IMG/VR virus record: IMGVR_UViG_3300043398_000289
Location: 1 to 44,620 of that record
Direction: 5' to 3' (one strand)
DNA length: 44,620 nt
DNA from: a virus
Made by a program: the position numbers and the translations under genes. Below the pieces are notes generated by a model that did not search any database, had not been told where the DNA came from, and saw only the letters and a program-made list of their open reading frames with translations. Below, piece by piece: positions 4,208 through 23,446 of this stretch (position 1 is its first letter; every line of letters starts with the position of its first letter).

Positions 4208-4298
4208 AGCGCCAACCCGCACGTGTCGTCCTGTCACAGTTAAGGCAAGCGACCACATAAGAAACCCATAAGAGACACATAAGGAGGAGTTGCCGGGG

Positions 4299-4316
4299 TC
4301 GGCACGGTTGCTGCAA
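4299..4316 (+). promoter_or_regulatory. sigma-54-like promoter core, copy 1
   Basis: CGGCACGGTTGCTGCA fits the sigma-54 consensus TGGCACG-N4-TTGCW, with GG (4301-4302) and GC (4313-4314) exactly 10 bases apart. The same GG-N10-GC recurs in the other three cassettes. A weak sigma-70 reading (TTGCCG-16-TGCAAC) is the alternative. Confidence 0.5.
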
Positions 4317-4330
4317 CAACCGAGACCGAA

Positions 4331-4345
4331 GCCGCAAGGGGCGGC
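4331..4345 (+). promoter_or_regulatory. 5'-leader hairpin (GCCGC-N5-GCGGC), copy 1
   Basis: Stem GCCGC/GCGGC with loop AAGGG, preceded by GAAG overlapping the stem and lying about 20 bases before the ATG at 4365. One of five copies in front of left-arm genes; see the finding on covariation. Confidence 0.65.
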
Positions 4346-4364
4346 CGATACAAGGAGACCCACA

Positions 4365-4547
4365 ATGACCGTTTCCCAGCTGATCGCTCTCCTCTCCACG
4401 ATGCCCGCCGACGCCGAGGTTGGCCTCTACAACGAGAACTCCGGACACGTGGTCCGCCTTCTCAACCCGCCCGTCAGCCTCGAGACCGAGGAGGGCGCGT
4501 TCGTTTGCCTCGAGGGTGACGACGGTTACGCGATCGAGGTGCTGTGA
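4365..4547 (+). CDS. small phage protein of unknown function
   Basis: A 60-residue acidic protein beginning MTVSQLIALLSTMPADAEV, a pattern common in small phage proteins of unknown role. It is the first gene after cassette 1 and has a good Shine-Dalgarno site (AAGGAG, 9 bases upstream). The stop TGA overlaps the ATG of the next gene (TGATG), so it heads a translationally coupled cluster running to 5306. No catalytic motif is visible. Confidence 0.7.
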   Translation: MTVSQLIALLSTMPADAEVGLYNENSGHVVRLLNPPVSLETEEGAFVCLEGDDGYAIEVL

Positions 4548-5316: not shown

Positions 5317-5358
5317 GAGCGGTCCCGCACGTGCGACTCTGGCACGGCGGGGCCGCTC
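5317..5358. terminator. long two-part hairpin, terminator-like
   Basis: A 12-bp stem (5317-5328 with 5347-5358, one G-U pair) continues after a bulged A into CGTGC/GCACG (5330-5334 with 5342-5346) around a 7-base loop. No U-tract follows on either strand, so factor-independent termination is uncertain. A homologous hairpin with different stem bases lies at 8248-8287. Confidence 0.55.
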
Positions 5359-5406
5359 AACCGTATAAGGAACCCATAAGGAACACGTCAAGCGGGGTTG
5401 CCGTGG

Positions 5407-5424
5407 TTGGCACAAGGGCTGCAT
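5407..5424 (+). promoter_or_regulatory. sigma-54-like promoter core, copy 2
   Basis: TTGGCACAAGGGCTGCA with GG at 5409-5410 and GC at 5421-5422, 10 bases apart. It overlaps the palindrome TGCC-N6-GGCA (5400-5413). It is identical in this core to copy 4. Confidence 0.5.
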
Positions 5425-5438
5425 TAGGGGAGACCGAA

Positions 5439-5453
5439 GCTGCACGGAGCAGC
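5439..5453 (+). promoter_or_regulatory. 5'-leader hairpin (GCTGC-N5-GCAGC), copy 2
   Basis: Same hairpin as copy 1, but the third stem pair is T-A instead of C-G: both sides changed together, evidence that the RNA fold matters. The loop is ACGGA and GAAG precedes it. Confidence 0.7.
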
Positions 5454-5472
5454 CGACGCAAGGAGCCACACA

Positions 5473-5832
5473 ATGACCCTCTCGATGACCGGATTCGCCT
5501 CGTTCGCCTCACTCGACAACACCCCCGCGGTGGGCATGCCCGCTACGGTGTGTGGCTGGACCGACAGGCACCCTTTCACTGTGGTCCGGGTCTCCGCCTC
5601 GGGCAAAACCTGCTGGGTCCGCGAGTGCTCCTCGAGGCGCACGGACAACAACGGCATGAGCGAGTCGCAGACTTGGGAGATCACCGAGAACCCCGGAGGG
5701 CGCGTGCTCTGCTTCAAGCTTTGCCTCGGCGGCAAGAGGAGGTCGGGTGGCTGGCGCGAGGCCGGTAGCAACGGACGCGGGAGTCGCCTCGTCCTGGGTG
5801 AGCATCGCCGCTACTTCGACTTTTCGTTCTGA
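5473..5832 (+). CDS. hypothetical protein
   Basis: A 119-residue basic protein with four Cys (VCGW, KTCWVREC, VLCFKLC region) and the N-terminus MTLSMTGFASFASLDNTPAVGMPATVCGWTD split by no known motif. It looks like a small beta-rich protein. It is the sole gene between cassette 2 and the sigma-70 promoter at 5835, with its own cassette and Shine-Dalgarno site, so it is probably expressed strongly or on a special schedule. Function is not recognised. Confidence 0.6.
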   Translation: MTLSMTGFASFASLDNTPAVGMPATVCGWTDRHPFTVVRVSASGKTCWVRECSSRRTDNNGMSESQTWEITENPGGRVLCFKLCLGGKRRSGGWREAGSNGRGSRLVLGEHRRYFDFSF

Positions 5833-5834
5833 GA

Positions 5835-5863
5835 TTGACTCGCTCCGGTTGCCGTGCTATACT
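5835..5863 (+). promoter_or_regulatory. sigma-70-type promoter
   Basis: TTGACT (5835-5840), 17-base spacer, TATACT (5858-5863). It is the best sigma-70 match in the left arm, about 48 bases before the ATG at 5911. The spacer contains GGTTGCCGTG, also present in cassettes 2 and 4. Confidence 0.8.
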
Positions 5864-5910: not shown

Positions 5911-6408
5911 ATGCAGACCCCGTTCGTCACTCAGATCCTCCCGACCAACCCCGACATGCCCGAGAACTCGGCCCGTCTCGCGTCCGAGGCCGTCTCGGCG
6001 TTCGTTCGTGCGGGCTCGGCTAGGTTCACGCTGCTGAACCCGCAGACCGGCAAGCGCTTCACGTACAAGGTCAGCGCGCCGAAGTCGGCCCCGGACAACC
6101 CGCAGCCCGACGACGCGAAGCCGCTCTTCGTCTCGGTCCTCACGGGCTCGGACAACGACTCCGACTACAGCTACCTCGGCGTCATCTTCGCCGACTCCGG
6201 GTTCCGCGTGACGCGCCGCTCGAAGATCTCGCCGGACGCCCCGTCGGCCCTCGCGTTCGGTTGGTTCTGGCGTCGGCTCTCGAGCGGCTCGAGCTTCGAG
6301 CCGTGCGAGGTCTGGCACATGGGCCGGTGTGGTCGTTGTGGTCGCGCCCTGACCGACCCGGAGAGCATCGCCGCTGGCATCGGCCCCAAGTGCGAGGAGA
6401 TGTCGTGA
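5911..6408 (+). CDS. DUF6011-type protein with C-terminal zinc motif
   Basis: A 165-residue protein. The C-terminal VWHMGRCGRCGRALTDPESIAAGIGPKC is typical of the DUF6011 family, with CxxC and a later GPKC Cys that could bind zinc. The N-terminal 120 residues (RFTLLNPQTGKRFTYKV, then YLGVIF) resemble the module that precedes DUF6011 in many phage proteins. Biochemical role unknown. Transcribed from the promoter at 5835; the end overlaps the next gene's GTG (GTGA), coupling it to the cyclotransferase-like gene. Confidence 0.75.
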   Translation: MQTPFVTQILPTNPDMPENSARLASEAVSAFVRAGSARFTLLNPQTGKRFTYKVSAPKSAPDNPQPDDAKPLFVSVLTGSDNDSDYSYLGVIFADSGFRVTRRSKISPDAPSALAFGWFWRRLSSGSSFEPCEVWHMGRCGRCGRALTDPESIAAGIGPKCEEMS

Positions 6409-6905
6409 GTGACCTCGTGACCTATTTCGCGTTCGGCTCGAACATGTCGACGCGACAGATGTTCAACCGGTGCCCGTCGGCCCGTCCGATGGGCACCGGA
6501 GAGCTTCGCGGCTACCACCTCGTGTTCGGCGGTCGCGGGGTCGCGAGCATCGAGCCCCACGAGAGCCGCAAGGTGCATGGCGTCCTGTACGTCATGAAGG
6601 CCGCCGACCTGCTCCAGCTCGATACCTACGAGGGTGTCCCGACCGTGTACCGCCGTTGCTTCCGAAAGGTGGTCGACAAGTTCGGGACCCGCTGGAAGGC
6701 CCACACCTACGTCCTGAACGACGCGGGCCGCTCGAGGCCAGCGGAGAGCTACCTCAGCACCATTCGCGAAGCATACGTGCGATTCAACCTCCCGATCGAG
6801 CCGCTACACCGAGCACTCGAGGACGCCAAGCCTCGCCCTGTCCTGCAGGTGCCCGAGCGCATGAACGACGAGGACATCCGGCGAATGATGATGCGCGTTC
6901 ACTAA
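6405..6905 (+). CDS. AIG2/gamma-glutamylcyclotransferase-like protein 1
   Basis: A 166-residue protein starting at GTG 6405. YFAFGSNMS near the N-terminus is the nucleotide- or substrate-loop signature of the GGCT/AIG2 fold; LDTYEGVPTVYRR supplies the Glu region (YEG) where the catalytic acid of the family lies. Family members release 5-oxoproline from gamma-glutamyl groups. A second homologue sits at 8914-9297 and an amidoligase between them, an association known for Amidoligase_2 systems. Substrate unknown; a gamma-glutamyl or isopeptide-linked product of the amidoligase is a reasonable inference. The C-terminal 50 residues are an extension. Confidence 0.8.
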   Translation: MSDLVTYFAFGSNMSTRQMFNRCPSARPMGTGELRGYHLVFGGRGVASIEPHESRKVHGVLYVMKAADLLQLDTYEGVPTVYRRCFRKVVDKFGTRWKAHTYVLNDAGRSRPAESYLSTIREAYVRFNLPIEPLHRALEDAKPRPVLQVPERMNDEDIRRMMMRVH

Positions 6906-6984
6906 CGGTCGTCTCGCCCGGCGACCGAGCACGGCGGCTCTCCCACCGTTCGTGCTCCTGAAAGCCCAGGACGTAGGCTTGACG

Positions 6985-6998
6985 GCCGGAGAGACGGC
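6985..6998 (+). promoter_or_regulatory. GAGAGA-loop hairpin, copy 1
   Basis: GCCG, loop GAGAGA, CGGC. The same hexaloop closed by a G-C pair occurs twice before the DNA polymerase gene (14666-14679 and 14711-14726) with different stem sequences. Confidence 0.5.
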
Positions 6999-7235
6999 AC
7001 TTTCTCGAGGACCCGATGCCCAGACGCCGAACCGGTCGACGTGGAGTGACGGAAAGTCGGGCCTTTCTCGAGGGCCTCGGCCCGTCGTCGACCGTGGAAC
7101 CGTCGTCCACAACGTGCGAGTCTGCACGTGCGATTCCGACACAACGGGAATCGCCGACCCCAGCCACAACACCCACGAACCCCTCAGAAGCATATAACGA
7201 AGCCATAACAACCGTGTCAAGCGGGGTTGCCGGGG

Positions 7236-7253
7236 TTGGCACCGTTCCTGCAA
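7236..7253 (+). promoter_or_regulatory. sigma-54-like promoter core, copy 3
   Basis: TTGGCACCGTTCCTGCA with GG-N10-GC spacing conserved while the intervening bases differ from copies 2 and 4, which argues for selection on the -24/-12 elements. Confidence 0.5.
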
Positions 7254-7267
7254 TAACACCTCCCGAA

Positions 7268-7282
7268 GCCGCAAGGGGCGGC
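7268..7282 (+). promoter_or_regulatory. 5'-leader hairpin (GCCGC-N5-GCGGC), copy 4
   Basis: GCCGC, loop AAGGG, GCGGC preceded by GAAG; followed by AAGGAG and the ATG at 7301. Confidence 0.65.
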
Positions 7283-7300
7283 ACAAGGAGACGACAGACC

Positions 7301-8236
7301 ATGACGACCCTCAAGGACATCCGCTTTGGCATCGAGTTGGAGACCGTCGGCCTTTCGATCGAGCGCTGCGTTTCGGTGATCGCGGCTGCGATCCCGGGCT
7401 CGCGTGGCTCGTACGACAAGGTCCGCCTCGCCGATGGTCGCAACTGGTCTTGCGTCCGCGATGGTTCGCTCACCCCGGGCCAGTCCTGCGAGGTCGTCTC
7501 GCCGATCCTCACGTACGCCGACATGGACATGCTGCAGAACATCATCCGCGCACTTCGCGAGGCAGGAGCTAGGGCGGACGATAGCTGCGGGATCCACGTG
7601 CACGTCGACGGTTCGGTGCTCGACGCGCGCTCGATGGCCAACCTCGTCAAGAGCTACAACAAGCAGGAGGATCTCCTGGTCAAGGCGCTCGCGGTCCGCA
7701 GCAATCGTCGCCGGTACTGCAACGCGGTCGATCAGGCCTTCCTTGGCCGTCTCGAGCGCCGCGCCGTCCGTTCGCTGGACGACGTGCGCACGGCTTGGTA
7801 CGGACGCCGCGAGATGCACGTGAGCCGCTACGACGTCTCGCGCTACCACGGGCTCAATCTCAACAGCTTCTTCTACCGTGGCACCGTCGAGTTTCGCCTG
7901 TTCAACGGCTCGATGCACGCTGGCGAGGTCAAGGCGTACGTGAACCTCTGCCTCGCCATGGTGGCCAAGGCCACGCAGATCAAGTCCACCCCGAGCAGCA
8001 AGCGCGAGAGCACGGACGAGACGGCCAAGTACGACATGCGGATGTTCCTCGTGTCCCTGGGCTTCATCGGCGACGAGTTCGAGAGCACGCGCCTTCACCT
8101 CCTCAAGCACCTCAAGGGCTCGGGCGCTCACCGCAACACGACCCGCAACCCCGAGCCGCGCGTGACTCCGCCCGGGATGCGCTGGGTCTTCGGCCGCCTG
8201 ATCCCGGTCGCAGGCCAGGAAGCAACCCAGGCCTGA
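7301..8236 (+). CDS. Amidoligase_2-type enzyme
   Basis: A 311-residue protein of the glutamine-synthetase-fold amidoligase family (Amidoligase_2). Visible signatures in order: FGIELET (metal-binding ExE, residues about 7-13), EVVSP, SCGIHVHVDGS (about residues 94-104) and GTVEFRLFNGSMHAGEVKAYVNL, the late GT-E-R strand with its following helix. Such enzymes use ATP to make amide or isopeptide bonds, and the phage forms often neighbour AIG2-like cyclotransferases, as here on both sides. The substrate could be glutathione-like peptides, cell-wall peptides or a protein tail; the sequence does not say. Own cassette promoter, leader hairpin and Shine-Dalgarno site fix the ATG at 7301, although the frame is open upstream. 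Confidence 0.8.
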   Translation: MTTLKDIRFGIELETVGLSIERCVSVIAAAIPGSRGSYDKVRLADGRNWSCVRDGSLTPGQSCEVVSPILTYADMDMLQNIIRALREAGARADDSCGIHVHVDGSVLDARSMANLVKSYNKQEDLLVKALAVRSNRRRYCNAVDQAFLGRLERRAVRSLDDVRTAWYGRREMHVSRYDVSRYHGLNLNSFFYRGTVEFRLFNGSMHAGEVKAYVNLCLAMVAKATQIKSTPSSKRESTDETAKYDMRMFLVSLGFIGDEFESTRLHLLKHLKGSGAHRNTTRNPEPRVTPPGMRWVFGRLIPVAGQEATQA

Positions 8237-8247
8237 GGTTCACACCG

Positions 8248-8287
8248 GGCGGTCCCGCACGTGCGCCCTTGGCACGACGGGACCGCC
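8248..8287. terminator. long two-part hairpin, terminator-like
   Basis: Perfect 10-bp stem GGCGGTCCCG/CGGGACCGCC (8248-8257 with 8278-8287) enclosing CGTGC/GCACG (8260-8264 with 8272-8276). It corresponds to 5317-5358; the outer stem bases differ but pairing is kept. Confidence 0.55.
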
Positions 8288-8346
8288 GACCCCATAACGA
8301 ACACATAAGGAACCCATAACAACCGCGTCAAGCGGGGTTGCCGTGG

Positions 8347-8364
8347 TTGGCACAAGGGCTGCAA
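8347..8364 (+). promoter_or_regulatory. sigma-54-like promoter core, copy 4
   Basis: TTGGCACAAGGGCTGCA, GG at 8349-8350 and GC at 8361-8362. Predicted transcript start (about 8374) nearly coincides with the ATG at 8376, so the message would be leaderless. Confidence 0.5.
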
Positions 8365-8375
8365 TAACGTCTCCC

Positions 8376-8537
8376 ATGACCAACCCGAACAAGTTCCTCG
8401 CCAGCCACACCCTCGGCCTTCTCGATTGGGCGCGCGAGGCCGCCCCTCGTTCCAACAAGGGCTGGGCCGTTGCTCGCCAGCCCTCCACCCGCTGGGATCA
8501 CTTCTCTCCCAGCTTTTCCGCCCCCTCTTTCAGCTGA
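8376..8537 (+). CDS. small hypothetical protein
   Basis: A 53-residue protein (MTNPNKFLASHTLGLLDWAREA then Ser/Phe-rich end FSPSFSAPSFS). There is no Shine-Dalgarno site; translation would depend on a leaderless mRNA from cassette 4. It is followed by a GC-rich hairpin at 8559-8578. Coding status rests on the promoter placement and a protein-like first 22 residues; function unknown. Confidence 0.45.
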   Translation: MTNPNKFLASHTLGLLDWAREAAPRSNKGWAVARQPSTRWDHFSPSFSAPSFS

Positions 8538-8558
8538 TCGGAAGTGGCACGACACAAT

Positions 8559-8578
8559 CCCCGGGGTCACCCCCGGGG
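8559..8578 (+). terminator. GC-rich hairpin after 8537
   Basis: CCCCGGGG, loop TCAC, CCCCGGGG: a perfect 8-bp stem 21 bases after the stop. Two smaller inverted repeats follow (TTGCC-GA-GGCAA at 8583-8594, GCGGAG-N5-CTCCGC at 8596-8612). There is no T-run, so termination is inferred from stem strength only. Confidence 0.5.
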
Positions 8579-8643
8579 GAGCTTGCCGAGGCAAGGCGGA
8601 GCGCCCCTCCGCTCGTGCGACCCCCGATCCGCTGAACCCAGAA

Positions 8644-8658
8644 GCCGCAAGAAGCGGC
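8644..8658 (+). promoter_or_regulatory. 5'-leader hairpin (GCCGC-N5-GCGGC), copy 5
   Basis: GCCGC, loop AAGAA, GCGGC preceded by GAAG, 16 bases before the GTG at 8675; the promoter for this unit is not evident. Confidence 0.65.
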
Positions 8659-8674
8659 AGAAAGACAGGACACC

Positions 8675-8917
8675 GTGACGACCGAGATCACAGACACGAG
8701 CCTTGCGGTTTTCTTGGCCTACGCTCGGGATGCCCGCAACTGGTCTGGAACCCCAATGGTGGGAGGCAACGTCGGCGGAAGCCCGGAGGAACGCGGGAAC
8801 ATCACGCAGTGCAAGCGTGCTGGGTTGTGGATCACGTGGAAGGACGAGGGCTGTACATGGATCCAGTTCACCGAGGCCGGCAAGGCGTTGGCCCTCAAGC
8901 ACGGGATCGAACTGTGA
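8675..8917 (+). CDS. small hypothetical protein
   Basis: An 80-residue protein from a GTG with AGACAGGA as ribosome site. Its C-terminal half (WITWKDEGCTWIQFTEAGKALALKHGIEL) resembles the wing and final helix of small winged-helix phage proteins, and FTEAGKALA matches the common FT-x-G-x-A ending. It overlaps the next gene by GTGA, coupling it to the second cyclotransferase homologue. Confidence 0.6.
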   Translation: MTTEITDTSLAVFLAYARDARNWSGTPMVGGNVGGSPEERGNITQCKRAGLWITWKDEGCTWIQFTEAGKALALKHGIEL

Positions 8918-9297
8918 CCCACCTCGTCTTCGTGTACGGCTCGCTGCTCTCGGGTGAGCACAACCACGGGCTCCTGGGAGGGGCCACGTTTCGCGGCATA
9001 GCGAGCACGTGGCCACACTTCCGCCTCTACGACCTGGGTTCGTTTCCAGGCGTCGTCGAGCACCACAAGGGCCGAGTCATCGTCGGCGAGGTGTATGAGG
9101 TCGACGACGCAACGCTCGCGCGCCTCGACCGGCTCGAGGGACACCCGCGCATGTACGAACGCCGCACGGTCGCGTGCGTCGGCCCGGGTCTTCGCGTGCA
9201 CAAGGCTTGGCTGTACGTCTACAAGGGCCGAGTTCTCGAGCAGGACGAGGTTCGCAGCGGCAACTGGCAACTGCACCGAATGGAGAGGGACCGATGA
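8914..9297 (+). CDS. AIG2/gamma-glutamylcyclotransferase-like protein 2
   Basis: A 127-residue, minimal-length GGCT-fold protein. VFVYGSLLSGEHN is the family YGSL loop; LDRLEGHPRMYERR contains the Glu-Gly-His-Pro motif at the position of the catalytic acid, followed by the typical Tyr-Arg strand; AWLYVYKGR is the closing strand. It is shorter than and divergent from the copy at 6405, so the two probably have different substrates. Start GTG 8914 overlaps the upstream stop. Likely a partner or counter-enzyme of the amidoligase at 7301 (inference). Confidence 0.85.
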   Translation: MTHLVFVYGSLLSGEHNHGLLGGATFRGIASTWPHFRLYDLGSFPGVVEHHKGRVIVGEVYEVDDATLARLDRLEGHPRMYERRTVACVGPGLRVHKAWLYVYKGRVLEQDEVRSGNWQLHRMERDR

Positions 9298-9515
9298 ATC
9301 TGATCATGCAGGACGGGCGCGTGTTTCGTGGCAGCAAGCGAGACATCGTGGAGCAGATGCGGTCGTCGGCGTTCTCGCCGCACGCGAGCCTCGAGGCGTA
9401 CATCGTGTGGTGCGCCGATCGTGCAGGCCTGGCCTTGCGCGAGGACACACCGGAAGCGCTGGTCGACGCGATGCTCAAGGCCGAGATCGTCGCCGAGAAG
9501 GGCAGCAAGCCGTGA
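9294..9515 (+). CDS. hypothetical protein
   Basis: A 73-residue protein with ATGA overlap to the upstream gene. It starts MNLIMQDGRVFRGSKRDIVEQM, a style seen in small phage proteins in which a beta-hairpin (DGRVFRGS) precedes helices; the remainder (LEAYIVWCADRAGLAL) is helical. Function unknown. Confidence 0.6.
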   Translation: MNLIMQDGRVFRGSKRDIVEQMRSSAFSPHASLEAYIVWCADRAGLALREDTPEALVDAMLKAEIVAEKGSKP

Positions 9516-13983: not shown

Positions 13984-14056
13984 GCCTGCAAAGCTCAAGC
14001 GGTAGAGCACCTGTTTTGTAAACAGGAGGAAGCGAGTTCGAGTCTCGCTGCAGGCT
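13984..14056 (+). tRNA. tRNA-Thr (anticodon TGT)
   Basis: 73 bases fold as a complete tRNA: acceptor GCCTGCA/TGCAGGC, D-stem GCTC/GAGC with GCGGTA loop, anticodon stem CCTGT/ACAGG with loop TTTGTAA (anticodon TGT, reads ACA), variable AGGAA, T-arm GCGAG-TTCGAGT-CTCGC. CCA is not encoded. It begins 5 bases after the preceding stop. ACA codons would be rare in a GC-rich host, so the tRNA may supplement translation. Confidence 0.9.
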
Positions 14057-22569: not shown

Positions 22570-22871
22570 CTTGTCCCCTCAAGCCTTTCGACTCGTTGCG
22601 AGAGTGTATCGATCGCCTCGAGCCTGCGACCGAGGATGTAGCTCGCGCCGAGTAGTCCGCCGAACACGGACACGACGACAGAGAACGAGCCCACGGCGAC
22701 GGTCGCGATCATCCAGACACCGATCCGCTCCATGCGACGGAGTCTGTGGTCGGTCAGGAGCGAAACCACGTTGAGCTTGCGGATCGAGTTCTCGGGGCTC
22801 GAAACCGGCTCGCTCATCGCGTTACGGACTTGGCCCGTGAGGTCGTCGTCGAGGTCAAGTGTCGTACTCAT
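22566..22871 (-). CDS. single-span membrane protein, lysis-associated
   Basis: A 101-residue protein: charged N-terminal half ([26 protein letters not shown]), one membrane span ([29 protein letters not shown]) and a short C-terminal coiled-coil helix ([15 protein letters not shown]). This resembles XhlA-like or inner-membrane spanin/antiholin proteins. ATGA overlap with the next gene. Confidence 0.55.
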
Positions 22872-23446
22872 GGGATCGGCCCTCCGTTGAGCGAGACGAG
22901 GAGAGCAGCCATCCTGAGTAGGCAGTCCTCCATGTTCGACGGGTCATTCGTCGCCCATGTCCCACCGGGCCAGTTGGACGGGAGCGCGCCAGGTTCGCCC
23001 TGCGGTCCCTGCGGACCATCCGGGCCGATCGCACCCGCTGGGCCTTCTGGGCCTGGATCACCCTGCGGCCCCGGAGGTCCGCCCGGATCGCCCTGTGGTC
23101 CCTGCGGCCCCGCCGGACCCTCTGGACCCTGTGGGCCCTCGGGACCCTGTGGACCTGGCGGTCCTTCTGGTCCGCCCGGGGGGCCTTGAGGCCCCTCGGG
23201 GCCTTGAGGCCCCTCGGGGCCTTGCGGTCCCCCCGGTCCTTCGGGGCCAGGGTTGCCATCGGGACCTTGTGGCCCCTGCGGACCATCCGGGCCGATCGGA
23301 CCCTGTGGCCCCTGCGCTCCGATGTCGACGAAACGCGCCGCGTCGTTGGGTCCGACAGGGGCGGCGAGGTTCGCGATCGGTTGGCCGCCGAGATCGAGCG
23401 GAGCGGTCATCGGCCATGCGCCGTCTGTGCGTAGAGCGCGGGGCAT
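22868..23446 (-). CDS. collagen-like tail fibre protein
   Basis: A 192-residue protein. The N-terminus [26 protein letters not shown] is the usual attachment motif of phage fibres; residues about 44-155 are collagen-type Gly-X-Y triplets ([10 protein letters not shown] style) expected to form a trimeric rod. The C-terminal 38 residues ([29 protein letters not shown]) match the end of the neighbouring fibre gene. The DNA is strongly repetitive here (about 22980-23320), a possible site of slippage between strains. Confidence 0.85.

Follow-up and report, generated by a model that had tools for sequence, protein, structure and literature searches.

Gene content of the cassette

The virus record IMGVR_UViG_3300043398_000289 of IMG/VR, analyzed over its whole length of 44,620 bases (the window), encodes the structural proteins of a contractile tail on its minus strand and has its replication genes on the plus strand. 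Amid the replication genes lies a cassette of four genes coding for an Amidoligase_2 enzyme, two cyclotransferases of different types (GGCT and GGACT), and a small protein, here called SP (Table 1). An initial annotation, made from the sequence alone, had described an amidoligase flanked by two AIG2-type proteins that diverge from each other, and all three open reading frames (ORFs) are found exactly where it had placed them.

The amidoligase matches the Pfam family PF12224 with an E value of 4.1e-54 and 184.5 bits (cut-off 22), covering positions 2-245 of the 245 of the profile. In an alignment of 58 relatives, 19 columns show no variation, and the enzyme conserves every one of them, including E12, E14, E64, H99, H101, E197, and R199. 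Because a sequence comparison with the PDB gave nothing below E 0.045, folds were compared instead, Foldseek being among the methods used. The best structural matches of the AlphaFold2 model (pLDDT 93.9) are YbdK/GCS2 (Z 14.5 and 14.1) and a plant glutamate-cysteine ligase (Z 13.5), and glutamine synthetases and GmaS follow with Z of about 11. According to this model, the amidoligase is predicted to fold like the γ-glutamyl ligases YbdK, glutamate-cysteine ligase, and glutamine synthetase, and model and 58-sequence alignment combine the GS/GCS2 ligase fold with the acidic, His, and Arg motifs of Amidoligase_2 enzymes. Characterized enzymes of this fold form a γ-glutamyl phosphate first and then an amide, although exceptions such as Dop exist.

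The first cyclotransferase is recognized by the Pfam models GGACT/AIG2 (E 9.6e-13) and AIG2_2 (E 1.2e-10). It possesses the Y/F-G-S-N motif and aligns with human GGCT in the PDB (2pn7) in such a way that the Glu of its LDTYEGV segment coincides with the catalytic Glu of LDEQEGV. The second one matches the Pfam family GGACT (E 3.9e-30) and aligns to the structures of YtfP and GGACT/A2LD1 (1xhs, 2kl2, 1vkb). It displays the F-V-Y-G-T/S-L...G..N motif, and the Glu in its LDRLEGH segment corresponds to the GGACT Glu in LDDFED. The two proteins can be aligned over 36 residues only, with 39% identity, and belong to different branches, one GGCT-like and the other YtfP/GGACT-like, so that the divergence noticed initially is real. 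The catalytic Glu is invariant across the 116 GGCT-type (YGSN) and the 105 GGACT-type (YGS/TL) domains of the survey described below. As it is intact in both proteins of the window as well, mutated active sites, which would have spoken against the initial proposal, are not encountered. GGCT and GGACT cleave γ-glutamyl amides and free 5-oxoproline; the YtfP branch itself is biochemically unclear.

Table 1. Cassette genes, putative control elements, and other features of the window.
Feature	Position	Strand	Remarks
Sigma-70-like promoter TTGACT-N17-TATACT	5835..5863	+	Ahead of DUF6011-GGCT unit; consensus match only
DUF6011 protein	5911..6408	+	Stop overlaps GGCT start
GGCT-type γ-glutamyl cyclotransferase	6405..6905	+	FAFGSN motif, catalytic Glu in LDTYEGV
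Repeated intergenic element	7171..7300	+	Precedes amidoligase; CATAA boxes, GG-N10-GC (sigma-54-like) core, GCCGC-loop-GCGGC hairpin
Further copies of the intergenic element	4216-4375, 5324-5483, 8231-8375	+	Four copies in all including 7171-7300
Amidoligase_2 (GS/GCS2-fold carboxylate-amine ligase)	7301..8236	+	Pfam PF12224, predicted fold
Possible 53-aa ORF	8376..8537	+	Behind fourth copy of the intergenic element; reality uncertain
80-aa protein	8675..8917	+	Overlaps GGACT start
GGACT/YtfP-type γ-glutamylamine cyclotransferase	8914..9297	+	VFVYGSL motif, catalytic Glu in LDRLEGH
SP, 73-aa ORF	9294..9515	+	ATGA overlap with GGACT stop; homologues beside cassettes
tRNA-Thr (TGT)	13984-14056	+	In replication region
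Kinase-PurZ fusion, 527 aa	17567-19150	+	PHROG 1211, E 2.8e-72
Collagen-like Gly-rich tail-fibre-type repeat protein	22868-23446	-	In structural region

Co-occurrence and distribution of the cassette genes

The initial annotation had proposed a survey of homologous neighborhoods as a check, and an alignment of amidoligases served to retrieve 80 loci from IMG/VR. Sampling was by similarity (the best 80 of 548 for viruses, the best 80 of 164 for genomes), the loci are spread unevenly over the tree, and genes were called mechanically. A cyclotransferase is encoded in 68 of the 80 viral amidoligase loci, and each of the 77 cyclotransferase genes found there lies downstream of the amidoligase on the same strand and starts within 3 kb of it; in 11 of the 12 loci devoid of such a gene, less than 3 kb of sequence is left downstream. 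This positional test and a reverse test stand in for a control set with an unrelated anchor; an attempt anchored on PurZ gave one locus. In the reverse test, 43 of 80 loci anchored on GGACT contain an amidoligase, among them all 24 that also hold a GGCT. In six loci (L013, L065, L090, L091, L101, and L145), GGCT and GGACT are fused in a single ORF. The absence of co-occurrence in related genomes, which would have weakened the initial proposal, is thus not observed, and an assembly by chance or of degenerate genes can be rejected on account of the invariant active sites and the strong co-occurrence. Exactly this triad of amidoligase, GGCT, and GGACT is encountered again in phages that are unrelated and in myxobacterial loci of prophage-like character. 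Because the surrounding genes are otherwise largely unrelated, the triad moves as a unit.

The SP family (about 75 residues) is a previously undescribed conserved part of the cassette, which the initial annotation had overlooked. SP homologues adjoin the cassette in many triads and are the sole conserved small neighbor found around them. In the GGACT-anchored set, SP is present in 12 of the 43 loci with an amidoligase and in none of the 37 without, and a pattern scan for SP retrieved five loci, every one of them a cassette. Among bacterial genomes, 33 of 36 loci carrying both cyclotransferases have it. The window SP has no match in Pfam, PHROGs, NCBIfam, or PADLOC, and tblastn with one homologue as query gave no match in known phages. 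The model of an SP homologue is a three-helix protein (pLDDT 91), for which Foldseek returned nothing from the PDB at E ≤ 0.001. That SP is a dedicated neighboring substrate, as a peptide or protein, was considered and rejected: as an alignment of 11 sequences contains no invariant Lys, Glu, or Gln, SP is not an obvious isopeptide acceptor. Its role in the cassette is probably that of an accessory or adaptor protein.

Phylogenetic analysis of the amidoligases splits the clade of the window from a clade typical of Bacillota and gut phages (support 100/98), in which the ligase is paired with GGCT alone. A second amidoligase paralogue is common in the latter cassettes (L006:7166-7906, L008:4109-4873, and 34 ORFs like them), and all three catalytic motifs are lost in 34 of the 36. 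This degenerate paralogue is likely a pseudoenzyme partner and is never found together with a GGACT-type gene. A further small conserved protein with the pattern IRKEYPxGTRVELVxMDDxQAPPIGTKGTVxGVD, which we take to resemble DUF4314, is encoded near Bacillota-phage amidoligases (L007:4503-4835 and 28 other loci). Elsewhere in the wider window clade, in members from Desulfobacterota, Kiritimatiellota, and other groups, the gene between amidoligase and GGACT codes for a class II glutamine amidotransferase (GATase) that stands alone. Of the 129 loci that have 3.5 kb or more of sequence downstream, 92 have GGCT, 28 have the GATase, 9 have neither, and none has both; in a deeper amidoligase lineage, the corresponding figures are 4 with GGCT, 15 with GATase, and none with both.

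Within the best 80 of 164 matches in sequenced genomes, the closest amidoligases belong to Myxococcus, Corallococcus, Archangium, Sorangium, and related bins. They are about 57-61% identical to the query L009, and the amidoligase of the window reaches 54-55% with the nearest of them. Practically all of the closest myxobacterial-type loci carry the full quartet of triad and SP, and several copies can exist in one genome, as in M. xanthus AM003 (L186, L191, L196, and L247, on at least four contigs) and M. llanfairpwll... (L179, L199, L200, and L201). Integrases, matches to virion structural and baseplate proteins, and DUF2924 were found when seven genome loci were sampled jointly, suggesting that the quartet loci in myxobacterial genomes are prophages. 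These findings hint that the host of the window may be a myxobacterium.

According to the initial annotation, the cassette genes belong to separately controlled units. In the window this is plausible. The promoter ahead of the DUF6011-GGCT unit matches 10 of 12 consensus positions and has a TG before its -10 box, the amidoligase is preceded by one of four copies of an intergenic element, and GGACT is part of an overlapping unit (8675-8917 / 8914-9297 / 9294-9515). In the element, tandem CATAAGGAACC-like boxes accompany a GG-N10-GC core, and in most cases there is also a GCCGC/GCGGC hairpin. Its cores are located at 4300, 5408, 7237, and 8348, four where 0.04 would be expected by chance, and the hairpin alone also occurs upstream of the ORFs at 5911 and 8675. 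In relatives, cassette genes lie next to one another or are fused, and the intergenic element is almost absent. Separate control therefore looks peculiar to this phage, and the sigma-54-like element was discarded as a general feature of such cassettes.

Judged by its position, the DUF6011 gene is co-transcribed with that of GGCT, which does not imply that it belongs to the cassette. No homologue of the 80-aa protein was found in cassette loci. In the kinase-PurZ fusion, a P-loop kinase-like N-terminal domain is joined to an adenylosuccinate-synthetase-like PurZ, which has GSEGKG where the corresponding PurA motif reads GDEGKG; this fusion suggests that the genome contains 2-aminoadenine (Z). 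A tie between the cassette and such a genome was rejected because PurZ/PurA was found in none of 28 other cassette-bearing records, many of which are fragments, so PurZ is no component of the cassette system. PADLOC gave no match to a known defence or counter-defence family, and membership of the cassette in such a family was likewise discarded.

A possible γ-glutamyl loading and unloading function

The recurrent pairing and fusion of two cyclotransferases with one ligase, the presence of SP, and the replacement of GGCT by a GATase together point to the handling of γ-glutamyl amides. On balance, a phage-encoded cytosolic cassette that loads and unloads γ-glutamyl groups appears probable to us. 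The gene set, the intact active sites, the fold, the co-occurrence, the fusions, and the replacement of GGCT by GATase are established by computation; the reactions and their order we infer. The amidoligase would use ATP to activate a γ-carboxyl group, most likely that of glutamate, which would then be joined to an amine. GGCT and GGACT would remove the γ-glutamyl group as 5-oxoproline, GGCT presumably preferring acceptors resembling α-amino acids and GGACT those resembling primary amines. The outcome would be either a transient handle or protecting group or a modification open to editing, comparable to EgtA/EgtC, BtrJ/BtrG, and PuuA/PuuD. As the class of target, a precursor of the host cell envelope or some other small molecule that undergoes modification in the course of infection appears most likely. 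That the cassette makes and removes γ-glutamyl (isopeptide-type) amide bonds is well supported, as this agrees with the ligase fold, with both types of cyclotransferase, with the invariance of the catalytic residues, with the very strong co-occurrence, and with the fusions. To this extent, the suggestion of the initial annotation that the genes build and edit an isopeptide-type modification holds; as to its purpose, for which counter-defence or peptidoglycan editing had been suggested, no neighbor, substrate, or defence-family match favors one biological role. More tentative, and in our opinion rather doubtful, is the idea that the quartet is a self-contained system of γ-glutamylation and deglutamylation by which phages install and remove a modification not seen so far; this could be placed on DNA, on a precursor of the cell wall, or on a component of a defence system. 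SP would then act as a dedicated carrier or adaptor, and GGCT and class II GATase as interchangeable deglutamylases. EgtC, which has the class II GATase fold, takes glutamate off a γ-glutamyl intermediate (PMC9103826), and a complex that degrades glutathione has Dug3 as its central component (PMC12653102). If both GGCT and the phage GATase could unload a γ-glutamyl group, as the precedent of EgtC would allow, their exchange would be understandable.

Several points weigh against loading and unloading. Unless a further step or a compartment came in between, a ligase beside two enzymes that undo its work would run in a futile cycle. The raw p-value of 7e-21 for the mutual exclusion of GGCT and GATase overstates independence and should not be taken at face value, because the tree requires only about three changes and loci were sampled by similarity. 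The phage GATase, moreover, scores best against the glutamine-hydrolyzing domains of GlmS and PurF and weakly against EgtC, and may by this resemblance supply ammonia instead, which makes ammonia supply a live rival. In such an amination pathway, the GATase of the sister cassettes would feed ammonia from glutamine to the amidoligase for the formation of carboxamides, and GGCT, freeing an amine from a γ-glutamyl compound, would fill the role of supplier in the window. The closeness of the GATase to the amidotransferase domains of GlmS and PurF, its conserved class II residues, and the fact that it never coexists with GGCT are in agreement with this possibility. However, cassettes of the Bacillota type manage without any GATase, and no efficient action of GGCT on glutamine is known; we consider amination quite improbable. 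An equally low probability is assigned to an auxiliary metabolic set in host nitrogen or thiol metabolism, resembling the glutathione cycle and having no special modification target. The ligase fold is indeed nearest to glutamate-cysteine-ligase-like enzymes, but a search of the window for a RimK-type ATP-grasp enzyme gave no match (other ATP-grasp families were not searched), and the confinement of SP to the cassette suggests a dedicated function.

Two further proposals concern the cell envelope and DNA or nucleotides. Cytosolic peptidoglycan precursors might gain or lose γ-glutamyl or isopeptide links, with the result that other phages bind or lyse poorly. Peptidoglycan stems contain γ-D-Glu and the amines of meso-diaminopimelic acid or Lys, and temperate carriage in the myxobacterial prophage-like loci would fit such a superinfection exclusion, which is also the published hypothesis for cassettes of phiEco32, LUZ24, and RIO1-like phages (PMC5498523; PMC10580990). 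However, the triad shows no consistent link with any cell-wall gene, and as no export signal is evident by inspection of the enzymes, an action on the mature wall is unlikely. Known cyclotransferases act on small L-γ-glutamyl compounds, and overall we regard envelope editing as fairly unlikely. Somewhat less likely still is a hypermodification of DNA or nucleotides, whereby glutamate would be ligated to an aminated or hydroxymethylated base, the cyclotransferases would trim or proofread, and resistance to restriction would result. Phage bases decorated with amino acids are known, the kinase-PurZ fusion makes the genome probably unusual already, and the cassette sits among replication genes, but the 28 other cassette records without PurZ/PurA argue against this proposal, as does the lack of a consistent link to any other base-modification enzyme.

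Although phages and prophages widely carry amidoligase cassettes, no product has been reported in the literature found, in line with the initial annotation. Cultured myxobacteria, Myxococcus xanthus AM003 among them, possess a minimal four-gene set whose product could be sought by mass spectrometry.

Comparison with known systems

BtrJ/BtrG and PuuA/PuuD are ligase/deglutamylase pairs. Like these and EgtA/EgtC, the cassette pairs a γ-glutamyl ligase with enzymes removing γ-glutamyl groups; however, as sets they are not homologous to it, and their substrates or pathway enzymes are not seen in the window. Among phages, Arthrobacter phages of cluster AL possess an AIG2-like gene (97) adjoining an amidoligase gene (98), but a single AIG2 protein is reported for them and their amidoligase is far more distant, at about 28% identity (PMC5513430). 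Cassettes of Bacillota and gut phages (Ca. Heliusvirales; PHROG 2443 and 2520) have an amidoligase of the same family (35-41% identity), immediately followed by GGCT. They differ in lacking GGACT and SP, in the degenerate second amidoligase that many of them carry, and in their separate amidoligase clade.

Phage amidoligase cassettes for peptidoglycan modification, of the phiEco32, LUZ24-like, and RIO1-like kind, were reportedly treated by Iyer et al. 2009 and Hardies et al. 2013. LUZ24-like and RIO1-like phages are described as having amidoligase clusters that include AIG2, a GATase, an ATP-grasp enzyme, and a further ligase, and these clusters were proposed to modify the peptidoglycan and to prevent superinfection (PMC3890496; PMC5498523; PMC10580990). 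The statement of the initial annotation that an association of amidoligase and AIG2 is known in phages is borne out by PMC5498523, PMC3890496, and PMC5513430. As in the phiEco32/LUZ24/RIO1 type, an Amidoligase_2 enzyme and a cyclotransferase of the AIG2/GGACT type form a cluster in the window, in a setting of early or replication genes. Cassettes of the phiEco32/LUZ24/RIO1 type have additional genes for a class II GATase, for an ATP-grasp enzyme, and for COOH-NH2_lig as second ligase, whereas GGCT and SP are features of the window. GATase_6 (PF13522) gave no match in the window record, which may be incomplete, but did match in control genomes, and COOH-NH2_lig (PF14395) gave no match at threshold in the window and none in the control genomes either. 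As the GATase was not found, the window is not classified as a member of the phiEco32/LUZ24 type, although its cassette may work in the same way. The best reading is that of a variant of this known kind of cassette, the new elements being two different cyclotransferases and SP.

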